A stretch of 64,000 bases of DNA, taken from contig JANQIX010000014.1 in assembly GCA_028281925.1 (NCBI GenBank), positions 1 through 64,000 of the forward strand, written 5' to 3'. A program made the position numbers and the translations under genes. The first letter of the stretch is position 1; each line of letters starts with the position of its first letter. Below the pieces are notes generated by a model. The model did no database searches and was not told the DNA's origin. It saw nothing but the letters and a program-made list of their open reading frames with translations. This document shows positions 59,507 to 64,000 of the stretch, piece after piece. The stretch comes from Alphaproteobacteria bacterium (lineage in GTDB: Bacteria > Pseudomonadota > Alphaproteobacteria > DSM-16000 > Inquilinaceae).

Positions 59507-59904
59507 AGTCGCCGGTATGAACGCCTGCGAGCGGCAACACGCAGGAAGAGGCGGCCGATGGCAGCGAAGCTCTTGTCGCTTCCGCTGCGTTTGCCGGTGT
59601 CTTTGAGGATAGCGACAGAAGGACTTGTGGCCGAGTAGGGGCTCAGCATGAGCCGGTTCCTGGTCGAGCCCCTTGCAGAGACGACGGCGACATCATCGCG
59701 CTGAAGGATCCGGGGGTTCGACGCTGAGCTGTGCGGAGATGTCATCGTAGCGCCACCATGATGCCGCAGCCCTACACCTGGAGACGGACGCCGTGTAGAG
59801 GGGCGAACAGGAGCGAGAGGCAAAGAGAGGTGCCGAACCGCCCCGGAGACTGAAGCGGAACGGGATCCGGACATCGGGCCGGCGCATCACGATGCCTTCT
59901 TGCT
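59507..59904 (+). other. 398-base region between convergent genes
   Basis: No convincing gene. Two minus-strand frames are open but are Arg/Ser-rich with no recognisable product or ribosome-binding site. One small inverted repeat, GGCTCA-GCA-TGAGCC, lies at 59640-59654. I looked for a short peptide precursor for the adjacent synthase-like gene and saw none. Confidence 0.5.
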
Positions 59905-61752
59905 TCAGTCTGCCACTGCCGTGAAGCCGACTCTGCGGATCCACGAATCCAGGCCGAGCAGCATCATCAAGAACTTCGTCGCCACGGCTCGTTGGGTGAG
60001 ATGGGCGTCGACTACCCGCTGTAGCTCCGGTTGCCGGAGCAGCCCGGCGTCAAAGAGCGGAGACGATGTGCAGAGGGCCTGAAGCCGAATCCGCATGCCG
60101 TCGCACGATCGCAGGAACTCAGGCCAGTTTAGCCATGACCCCTGCGTCAGCTTGGGGTCCGATAACCTGCTTCCGTCCCGAAACCCGTGAAGTCGACCGA
60201 CAGCAGCCCGTGCCATAAGCAAGGACAGCTGAAGCGGGTAAGGCCACCCCATCGGCGCGCCAGTATTGCTGTCGATGATACGAAACGGAGCTCTGGAGAT
60301 CGATCGTGCAACACTGCGTACCTCAAGCCCCCGCGCTTTCCAATCGACCGGCAGAGTGAAAAAGAGGTCCAGAAGATCGCGATCCAGGGCCGGCGTCCGC
60401 ATTTCCATGAAGGGCGTTGCCGCCAGGAAGTCGCCGTGGCTGGCGTGTCGTGAAAGGGCGTGAAGAACGAAGACATGGTACGCGTCGGCTGGATCGCTGA
60501 AATCCATGGTCGCAAGTGCGGCGCCGACGCCAGCAGCGGCGATGGTCGGCAACGCGTCCGCCAGATCGACCGCAAGTGACGCTTGAGCCGCGTTCCACTC
60601 GCTGCGGATATGGTGGGTGGCCGAGATGGTCTCGGGCGCGGCATCTGCCGGTGGCACCAACCTGGGCAGCGTCGCGCCGGACCGGCCGACCTTCAGCTTC
60701 GCCTTGGGCAGGTACGTACCGCGAAAGAAGATGTCGAGAAGATGTCCGTTCAGTACCGCGTGGTACCCGTCGGCGCGTAGCGAGGCATAGGCCGGTGGCA
60801 GAGAAAGGCACGGCTGATGCGCACAGTCGGTCAGGGCAATCGACATATCGAACGCGGCACTGACATCGTCGGCTGAAAGCGCGCGAAACTCGAAACGTTG
60901 TCCGGCGGCCCGCGCCACCTTCTCGGCGATCGTGATCTCACGGTTGCGCCACGCCGCGACGCTGTAGCACGGCAAAGACCGCCCGATCGACGATGCCGAG
61001 GCGGCCACCAGACGCGAATCGAGACCGCCCGACAACAGCAGGACCGGACGTGCCTCATCGTCGGTTCTCTTGGCGACGGCGGCCCGAAGCGCATCCGCCA
61101 GATCGCAGCGGTAGTCCTGTCGATTGCGCCGGCTCCCCAAGAACTGAGGCCGTGCCGGTTGCTGGCGGCTGACGCTGCCGTCCAGGGTCAGCCGCACAAC
61201 CTCTCCGGCCACCAGCCCGCTGATGTCGGCGAACATTGTGCGCCGGCCGAAGGTGCGCAGATGTGCAAGAAGCTCCACGACCGCAGTTCGCGAGAGCCGT
61301 CGGGGCGAGCGGTCGTCAGCCAGCAAGCCGTGCAGTCTGCTCGCAACGCCCAGGGCACCCGCATCCTGCCAGTAGTAAAGCGGCCGTGTGGAAAGCCGGT
61401 CGGCACCAAGGATGATGGTCCGCGATTGGGCGTCCCAGATCGCGAAGGCGAAGCTGCCGTTGAGTGTGGCTATCCGGTCGAACCGGTCGCCGTCCGCCAT
61501 CTCGGCGAACGGGCGGTACGGGTCCGACTTGTCTGCACCATAGAACTCGCCGTCGACCGCCACCAAGTAGCGGCCGCCGAACCAAAGTGGCCGCCGGCTG
61601 CCAGCCGTGGCAGCATGCCATATACCTCCCATAGCGAGGTTCGAGTTGGGCGCCTCCACATGGGTTTCGGCGGGCACCTGGACCAGCGCCGAAAGCATCC
61701 GGTCTACCCGGCGCTCCGCCTGATCTCCGGCGGCGAAGGCAATTCCGGACAT
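59905..61752 (-). CDS. Asparagine-synthase-like protein lacking the glutaminase Cys
   Basis: A 615-residue protein with the two-domain layout of asparagine synthetase B. The N-terminal Ntn-type domain (1-190) starts MSGIAF, so the essential Cys2 (MCGI) is Ser (TCC codon); GYDGEFYG-like features remain. The C-terminal synthase domain has LLSGGLDSRLVA, the pyrophosphate loop. Without Cys2 it cannot use glutamine as nitrogen donor; it may use ammonia or another amine, or make an amide or ring as in beta-lactam synthetase or lasso cyclase. It is divergent from flagellar genes. Confidence 0.85.
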   Translation of the reverse strand: MSGIAFAAGDQAERRVDRMLSALVQVPAETHVEAPNSNLAMGGIWHAATAGSRRPLWFGGRYLVAVDGEFYGADKSDPYRPFAEMADGDRFDRIATLNGSFAFAIWDAQSRTIILGADRLSTRPLYYWQDAGALGVASRLHGLLADDRSPRRLSRTAVVELLAHLRTFGRRTMFADISGLVAGEVVRLTLDGSVSRQQPARPQFLGSRRNRQDYRCDLADALRAAVAKRTDDEARPVLLLSGGLDSRLVAASASSIGRSLPCYSVAAWRNREITIAEKVARAAGQRFEFRALSADDVSAAFDMSIALTDCAHQPCLSLPPAYASLRADGYHAVLNGHLLDIFFRGTYLPKAKLKVGRSGATLPRLVPPADAAPETISATHHIRSEWNAAQASLAVDLADALPTIAAAGVGAALATMDFSDPADAYHVFVLHALSRHASHGDFLAATPFMEMRTPALDRDLLDLFFTLPVDWKARGLEVRSVARSISRAPFRIIDSNTGAPMGWPYPLQLSLLMARAAVGRLHGFRDGSRLSDPKLTQGSWLNWPEFLRSCDGMRIRLQALCTSSPLFDAGLLRQPELQRVVDAHLTQRAVATKFLMMLLGLDSWIRRVGFTAVAD

Positions 61753-61926
61753 TCGGCCCCCCTTTGGACCGCGGAGCTGCCCGCGGTCGCCCCCGATACG
61801 CCCGTCTCAGCCCAGGGCCGTCCGAGGCCTGCACGGCTTCCGTCGATGGTGGCGTCCTGGACCGTGGCAAGCTTGCCATGACCGCTGTTCGCCTTTGGCC
61901 TCCGCTTCTACACCGATGCGGCGGAA

Positions 61927-61938
61927 TGTCGATCGACA
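61927..61938. promoter_or_regulatory. Palindrome 1 upstream of the sigma-54 promoter
   Basis: TGTCGATCGACA is a perfect 12-base palindrome 46 bases upstream of the -24 element, in the range used by sigma-54 activators. Confidence 0.4.
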
Positions 61939-61940
61939 CA

Positions 61941-61957
61941 TTGTTGATCGTCAACAA
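61941..61957. promoter_or_regulatory. Palindrome 2 upstream of the sigma-54 promoter
   Basis: TTGTTGA-TCG-TCAACAA is a perfect inverted repeat with 7-base arms, 27 bases upstream of the -24 element. With palindrome 1 it may form an activator site. Confidence 0.45.
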
Positions 61958-61983
61958 ATGGCGTCGCCAGTCCGCTGGGGAAC

Positions 61984-61999
61984 TGGCATCCCCCTTGCA
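61984..61999 (+). promoter_or_regulatory. Sigma-54 (-24/-12) promoter of the flagellar genes
   Basis: TGGCATCCCCCTTGCA matches the consensus TGGCACG-N4-TTGCA with the -24 GG and -12 GC at the required spacing. It lies 63 bases upstream of the flgG ATG. Sigma-54 drives middle and late flagellar genes in many proteobacteria. Confidence 0.8.
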
Positions 62000-62061
62000 T
62001 AACCGTCCCCGAGCGCCCCTTTCGGGCCCACGGTCAGGTTGGCAAGCAGGATGCCGCAGTC

Positions 62062-62856
62062 ATGATGAAATCGCTCCATATCGCCGCGACGGGCATGAGC
62101 ACGCAGCAGCGCAACGTCTCCGTCATCACCAATAATCTGGCGAACGTGAACACCACTGCGTTCAAGACCCAGCATGCACTTTTTGCCGACCTGATGTACC
62201 AGAATTACCGGGTGGTCGGTCAGCCGACGAGCGATTCCGGCACGATCCGGCCCACCGGTCTGCAGATCGGCCTGGGCTCGCAGATCAACGGGTCCTACCG
62301 CATCTTCACCAGCGGCGCGCTGCAGCAGACCGAGAACAGCTTCGACGTCGCCATCAACGGCCGCGGCTTCTTCGAGGTCACCATGCCCGACGGTTCGCTG
62401 GCCTATACCCGCGCGGGGTCCTTCGCCGTCAACAGCGAGGGCGAGATCGTGACCACCGAGGGCTACCGGCTGAACGGCGTCAGCGGCACGATCGACGTCA
62501 ACGCGCTTAGCGTCACCATCGCCGAGAACGGCGGGATCTGGCAGGAACTGGCGGGCCAGACCGAGCTGCAGCAGGTGGGCGATATTCAGCTCAGCCTGTT
62601 CCAGAACGAGAATGGGCTGGAAGCCGTCGGCCGCAACTATTTCCGCGAGACTTCGGCCTCGGGCCAGGCGCAGAGCGACACGCCCGGCCTCGAAGGGCGT
62701 GGTGTGCTGCTGCAGGGCTACCTGGAGCGGTCCAACGTCGACACGGTCTCTGAGATCACCAATCTGATCGAAGCCCAGCGCGCCTACGAGCTGAACTCCA
62801 AGGCGCTGTCGCGCAGCGACGAGATGCTGCGCACGGCCGTCAACATCCTGAACTGA
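62062..62856 (+). CDS. flgG: Flagellar distal rod protein FlgG
   Basis: A 264-residue rod protein. The N-terminus has SLHIAATGMSTQQRNV and NNLANVNTTAFK, the middle NSFDVAINGRGFFEV, and the C-terminus LIEAQRAYELNSKALSRSDEMLRTAVNIL, all FlgG hallmarks. It forms the distal rod of the flagellum. A -24/-12 promoter lies just upstream. The next gene encodes a hook protein; the two likely form an operon. Confidence 0.95.
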   Translation: MMKSLHIAATGMSTQQRNVSVITNNLANVNTTAFKTQHALFADLMYQNYRVVGQPTSDSGTIRPTGLQIGLGSQINGSYRIFTSGALQQTENSFDVAINGRGFFEVTMPDGSLAYTRAGSFAVNSEGEIVTTEGYRLNGVSGTIDVNALSVTIAENGGIWQELAGQTELQQVGDIQLSLFQNENGLEAVGRNYFRETSASGQAQSDTPGLEGRGVLLQGYLERSNVDTVSEITNLIEAQRAYELNSKALSRSDEMLRTAVNILN

Positions 62857-62905: not shown

Positions 62906-64000
62906 ATGACCATCAACAACAGCATGGCGATCGGCGTCATGGGCATGAAGGCCCAGGACAAGGCGATGGCCAACATCTCCAACAACATCGCGAATGTGGG
63001 CACCACGGGCTTCAAGCGCACCGAGACCCGGTTCGCCGATCTGGTGGCCGGCGAGGCCGACAAATCCTCTGCCGGCAAGGGCGTGATTGCGCGCAACCAC
63101 AACTTCATCGGCATGCAGGGCCAGGTGGAGACCACGGGGCGTGACCTCGATGTGGCGATTTCCGGCCGTGGCTTCTTCCGCGTGACCAAGACGCTGGATG
63201 GCACCGAAGTGGCCGGGGCCAATCAGCCTGGCACGCTCTACACCCGCGACGGCGGCTTCCAGATGACGGACACGACGTCGGGCAAGTATCTCACGACCGC
63301 GGAAGGCTATTACGTGCACGGATGGGCGATCGACGAGACGACCGGCGCCGTCACCGGCACGCCCGGGCCCATGCGCTTCTCCCGCTACGCCCTGCTGCCG
63401 CAGGAGGCTACCAGCAACGTCAATGTGATCGGCTATGTGCCCGCGGACGGTTCGGTCCTGGAGGCACCGATCACCTTCCTTGCCTATCAGGCGGACTCGC
63501 TTCCCGAGGACGCCGCGGGCCAGGATGCGGCGATCGGCGACCCGGCTGCCGACGGTTCCATCACCATTCCACCGCTGCCCAGCCCTTCAAGCATCACCTA
63601 TGACTATATGCTGCGCTGGAACGGCACCGGCTGGGATCTGCACGACCCGACGAATGCGCTGGTCGGGTCGCTGACCGAGGTCGGCGGCGTGATCCAGCCG
63701 CTCACCCATAACGGCTTCACCTTCGACTTCTCCGGCATGAGCTTTTCCGGTACCGGTACCAACGGCGCCAGCGCCAGTGCCGACGGCTATCCCCGCGGCC
63801 GGCTGATGTCCTACGGCACGGACCGCCAGGGCAACCTGATCGAGCAGTACGACAATGGCCAGACCCGCCAGCGCTTCCGTCTGGCGCTCTACAATGTGGT
63901 CAACGAAGACCTGATGAAGCCCGTGGGCGACACGTACTTCACGGCCAACATCTCCCGCAACAGTCCGGACTTTGCTGACCCCCTGCAGACCGGCGTCTTC
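62906..64000 (+). CDS. flgE: Flagellar hook protein FlgE (cut by window edge)
   Basis: The first 365 residues of a hook protein. It begins MTINNSMAIGVMGMKAQDKAM with the NISNNIANVGTTGFKRTE motif, a LDVAISGRGFFRV core and a long FlgE-type variable middle. It continues past the right edge in an open frame. GACGGG lies shortly before the ATG. It follows flgG by 49 bases in the same direction. Confidence 0.93.
   Translation, partial: MTINNSMAIGVMGMKAQDKAMANISNNIANVGTTGFKRTETRFADLVAGEADKSSAGKGVIARNHNFIGMQGQVETTGRDLDVAISGRGFFRVTKTLDGTEVAGANQPGTLYTRDGGFQMTDTTSGKYLTTAEGYYVHGWAIDETTGAVTGTPGPMRFSRYALLPQEATSNVNVIGYVPADGSVLEAPITFLAYQADSLPEDAAGQDAAIGDPAADGSITIPPLPSPSSITYDYMLRWNGTGWDLHDPTNALVGSLTEVGGVIQPLTHNGFTFDFSGMSFSGTGTNGASASADGYPRGRLMSYGTDRQGNLIEQYDNGQTRQRFRLALYNVVNEDLMKPVGDTYFTANISRNSPDFADPLQTGVF

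Follow-up and report, generated by a model that had tools for sequence, protein, structure and literature searches.

The orphan flgG-flgE genes in the 64,000-nucleotide stretch of DNA analysed here (the window; contig C36 of the source genome, G000) are probably driven by an RpoN box upstream of them, most likely via FlbD, with control exerted at or downstream of that box. Two conspicuous palindromes farther upstream would not be the shared activator site, and a patch of codons within flgG is a candidate downstream site. The genomes compared with the source genome were G001, of the same genus, and G004, of the same family.

A predicted sigma-54 promoter precedes an orphan flgG-flgE pair

The promoter box and the two genes that follow it are:

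61984..61999, plus strand: sigma-54 (-24/-12) promoter box TGGCATCCCCCTTGCA, conserved in G001 and G004
62062..62856, plus strand: orphan flgG-type rod gene, TIGR02488 314.7 bits, above the cut-off of 252.75
62906..64000, on to contig position 64189, plus strand: orphan flgE-type hook gene, 427 aa, TIGR03506 206.9 bits against a cut-off of 70.25

A sequence-only reading of this region had proposed a sigma-54 promoter with correct -24/-12 spacing before flgG-flgE, and both parts of this claim were supported. The box is located 78 bp upstream of the flgG-type ATG at 62062, shows the correct GG-N10-GC spacing at 61984-61999, differs from the consensus TGGCACGNNNNTTGC by two mismatches and fits the tested context, TGGCAC-N5-TTGCW. 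Boxes of 2-mismatch quality are not rare, with 53 in 217,168 bp of source-genome DNA (both strands). Genome-wide, boxes with at most one mismatch numbered 72 on the forward and 66 on the reverse strand, as compared to 91 and 91 for a reversed-pattern control, so that there was no excess. The box is credible because it is conserved across relatives, not by its letters alone. In G001, an identical box was found 79 bp ahead of the ATG, and in G004 a consensus box, TGGCACGCCGATTGCA, was found 82 bp ahead of it in a leader that was otherwise unrelated. A sigma-54 box was thus present before orphan flgG in all three orphan loci. Judged from these sequences, the promoter appears to be real and ordinary, and the spacing of the box predicts a transcription start at approximately 62010. 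The source genome contains a single Sigma54_DBD match, RpoN, on contig C13, and a single RpoN holoenzyme would transcribe flgG-flgE from this box. The leader between 62022 and 62061 showed zero differences between G000 and G001, despite a synonymous divergence of flgG of approximately 0.23.

The main flagellar cluster resides on another contig (C73), apart from the orphan pair. The orphan FlgG protein is 49% identical to the main-cluster FlgG, and in a 72-row tree, from which duplicates and the even-numbered loci of one search were omitted and in which L029 formed a very long branch, it occupied a deep separate clade with a long stem and was not nested among the main-cluster FlgG proteins of the family. 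The flgE product scored below the cut-offs of the FlgE equivalog models (best, 177.5 against 400) and above that of the subfamily model TIGR03506 only. The order was represented by 17 genomes, all belonging to a single family, and 3 of them had the partner flgE; flgG was followed by flgE at two of 80 loci, those of G001 and G004. Orphan flgG is 99% identical in G001 and 81% identical in G004. Relative to G001, dN and dS of flgG were 0.0067 and 0.232, respectively, and dN/dS was approximately 0.03 for flgG and 0.08 for flgE (NG86), which indicates that both genes are under purifying selection. The pair may provide alternative rod and hook parts that are exported by the main flagellar apparatus. 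Downstream lies an exported-looking PCMT-type methyltransferase gene, which extends to contig position 65128. A complete second flagellar system was considered and rejected, as flgG and flgE are the only flagellar genes here, with the methyltransferase gene after them.

DNA upstream of the promoter was exchanged between sister genomes

The DNA upstream of the box contains the following features:

59507..61982: segment without counterpart in G001, 2476 bp, holding all of the palindromes and the synthase-like gene
59905..61752, minus strand: asparagine-synthase-like protein, 615 aa, GC3 0.742 against 0.87-0.89 in its neighbours
61865..61878: 14-bp perfect palindrome TGGCAAGCTTGCCA, inside the non-conserved segment and overlooked by the earlier reading
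61927..61938: 12-bp perfect palindrome TGTCGATCGACA, specific to the source genome at the flgG locus
61941..61957: 17-bp palindrome TTGTTGA-TCG-TCAACAA, with no other copy in the genome and none in G001 or G004 when up to one mismatch is allowed

By blastn, homology between G000 and G001 extended from 57501 (the query start) to 59506, at 93.3% identity, and again from 61983, at 94.9%, with none between. It ended at the mttB stop (59506) and restarted one base ahead of the box. The corresponding interval of G001, from the mttB stop to the box, is approximately 517 bp of unrelated DNA with a ParD-like fragment, and blastn similarity to G004 began only at the coding region. These alignments indicate that the promoter is retained while all of the DNA upstream of it turns over. 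Because the upstream DNA was exchanged wholesale between sister genomes and the box was kept, the control sequence would lie at or downstream of the box.

The two palindromes closest to the box had been read as possible activator sites. Their letters were confirmed, and they are centred approximately 77 and 61 bp upstream of the predicted start. However, both are missing from G001 and G004, although the boxes of these genomes persist. No 12-mer with up to two mismatches and no 17-mer with up to three was found in 12.8 kb of G001, nor was any palindrome with arms of at least 6 found in the 500 bp upstream of its flgG. The palindromes therefore failed the test of conservation in relatives that the sequence-only reading had itself set.

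The genome scan that it had also proposed gave no convincing recurrence at other sigma-54 promoters. At up to one mismatch, the 17-mer had no second copy in 6.3 Mb. At up to two mismatches, 5 places matched the 12-mer and 20 matched the 17-mer; of the places that were classified, most lie in coding DNA. Twenty site loci (15 of the 20 17-mer places and all 5 of the 12-mer places) were checked for a sigma-54 box within 250 bp, and the only such loci were two that covered the window site itself and one with a chance coding-region box, which had two mismatches and lay 12 bp away. The palindromes were accordingly rejected as a regulon motif. A 2-mismatch copy located before a LuxO-like activator gene (C91:32642) was not preserved as a palindrome in G001. 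It is thus unlikely that the palindromes are the control switch of the flgG-flgE promoter, because they are located in a foreign-looking segment that is missing from relatives. They would have arrived with, or arisen within, the exchanged DNA and would not be an activator site common to this promoter family, though they could have gained a function in the source genome alone.

What the palindromes represent can be considered in three ways. The chance that they are functionless sequence in A+T-richer intergenic DNA is, in our estimate, close to even though a little below it. They show no conservation, and 30 rows of similar pairs within 40 bp, several of them duplicates, were found in the 64-kb window. 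Nevertheless, when the local 94 bp were shuffled, just 24 of 5000 dinucleotide shuffles gave a pair with arms of at least 6 within 40 bp (for the 309-bp intergenic region, 67 of 2000 did), and the 17-mer has no other copy within one mismatch in the genome. The pair is therefore mildly unusual: uncommon locally, but not exceptional within the window.

We consider it unlikely that the palindromes function as binding sites for another sigma-54 activator and, having been gained in the source genome only, placed flgG-flgE under new control. Their distances from the predicted start, the local rarity of the pair and the presence of eight strong Sigma54_activat-domain proteins besides FlbD would be consistent with this idea. 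On the other hand, it is opposed by their absence from G001 and G004, by the lack of another convincing sigma-54 box among the 20 site loci and by the loss of palindromic form in the G001 counterpart of the LuxO-like-gene copy. In addition, the half-sites are spaced unequally (TGT-N6-ACA vs TGT-N9-ACA), which makes them a poor fit to one dimer binding both palindromes.

It seems similarly improbable that the palindromes serve as operators for the divergent asparagine-synthase-like gene and were acquired with it by horizontal transfer. The divergent synthase-like gene reported previously is supported by a PF00733 match, its GC3 is atypical and it shares with the palindromes the segment missing from G001. 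However, a consensus scan found no sigma-70-type promoter for it on the minus strand, and among eight loci with distant synthase relatives none carried the 17-mer at up to three mismatches and two carried loose 12-mer matches (2 mismatches). The gene stands alone, and relatives of approximately 30% identity were found in 8 of 385 sampled genomes of the class besides its own. Its product fell below the NCBIfam cut-offs (NF033535, 58.1 against 525; TIGR01536, 107.3 against 267.1). A lasso-peptide gene set was rejected, since the synthase-like gene alone is present, below model cut-offs.

FlbD is the most likely activator of the orphan promoter

Nine strong Sigma54_activat-domain proteins were found in the source genome, FlbD and the eight others mentioned above. 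The FlbD ortholog scored 760.9 bits with NF050807 (cut-off, 750), as compared to 756.5 bits in G001 and 729.3 bits, just under the cut-off, in G004. Each of the three genomes that carry the orphan pair has FlbD, as do 9 of the 13 family genomes tested (E 1e-150). As the encoded flagellar sigma-54 activator, FlbD would most likely be the activator of flgG-flgE.

The orphan promoters resemble the FlbD-ftr sigma-54 flagellar promoters of Caulobacter in having a box before rod or hook genes and an FlbD ortholog. They differ in having no upstream ftr-like site, and their weak downstream candidate falls within coding sequence. The comparison set for ftr sites consisted of 29 main-cluster flgF promoter rows from the class, searched over 400 bp with up to one mismatch. 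Of these rows, 27 had a sigma-54 box and 19 had a CGGCA-N5-TGCCG site, and control spacings of 3, 4, 6 or 7 were each found in few. In contrast, the same search (gap 5) found no CGGCA-N5-TGCCG site upstream of any of the three orphan promoters. Likewise, the family's main-cluster flgF-flgG promoters share the sigma-54 box, located there 53-99 bp before the ATG, and often have an upstream CGGCA-N5-TGCCG site, of which the orphan promoters have none.

As had been noted, the palindromes are unlike Caulobacter ftr sites, and both scored below -36 on the ftr matrix obtained from this comparison. The leader sequence GGCA-N7-TGCC (62041-62055) was rejected as an ftr site, its spacing being unlike that of the N5 sites. 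The TGGCAAGCTTGCCA palindrome, approximately 138 bp before the predicted start, has ftr-like halves with a gap one base shorter. Downstream (3') elements are known in Caulobacter, where ftr2/ftr3 downstream elements and a 3' enhancer appear among the titles cited in PMC3096577. The literature compared included parts of this paper and of PMC3930126.

A patch of A/T-ending codons in flgG is a candidate downstream site

Two overlapping features were found inside flgG:

62173..62184, plus strand: flgG codons 38-41 (CAT GCA CTT TTT), candidate DNA element, each codon ending in A or T and unchanged across three genomes
62174..62188: ATGCACTTTTTGCCG, a weak ftr-like sequence overlapping the codon patch, at +112 of flgG

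The patch is located approximately 165 bp downstream of the predicted transcription start. Codon positions that are A/T-ending in all three genomes, two of which are close, numbered 9 of 265 in flgG, codons 38-41 included, and when codons were permuted within amino-acid classes, a run as long as this one arose in 7 of 20,000 trials. It was also the only run of at least 4 among 36 G000-G004 frame pairs comprising 11,391 aligned codons (46 pairs were found and 10 were removed by a GC3 filter; some frames may overlap). The main-cluster flgG does not contain the A/T-ending run.

The top match to the ftr matrix, which was trained on 16 sites selected by the analyst, between -500 and +300 was ATGCACTTTTTGCCG in all three orphan loci, with the same sequence in each. 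With two mismatches in its left half, this match scored 6.2, as compared to 13.6-21.5 for the sites used in training. A score of 6 was reached at 74 of 203,888 positions, and other intragenic matches of equal or higher score were found at +477 and +569 in G000 and at +467 in G004. Of 72 A/T-ending codon runs of at least 4 in 78,129 open-frame codons, only the flgG patch scored at least 6.1. A literature search, which covered few subscription papers, found no paper on intragenic FlbD sites or orphan flgG-flgE pairs.

We judged it very unlikely that the patch is conserved because the mRNA pairs there with the leader, and not as a protein site, and rejected pairing as its cause: the G000 and G001 leaders do pair with the patch region in minimum-energy folds, but the fold z-score was -1.27 and no pairing was seen in G004, where patch windows ranked 173-188 of 188 even though the patch is identical. 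For the preferred explanation, control by FlbD at or downstream of the box, the A/T-ending patch would be the candidate activator site, though a weak candidate. We tentatively suggest, as a possibility rather than an expectation, that the orphan pair is controlled by an activator site within the flgG coding sequence, that synonymous sites there are constrained and that the upstream DNA is thus free to be swapped via gene turnover.

The natural exchange of upstream DNA between sister genomes removes a pair of attractive but misleading palindromes from the candidate sigma-54 activator sites. If the intragenic site is genuine, it would leave the DNA upstream of this promoter free for exchange by gene turnover.
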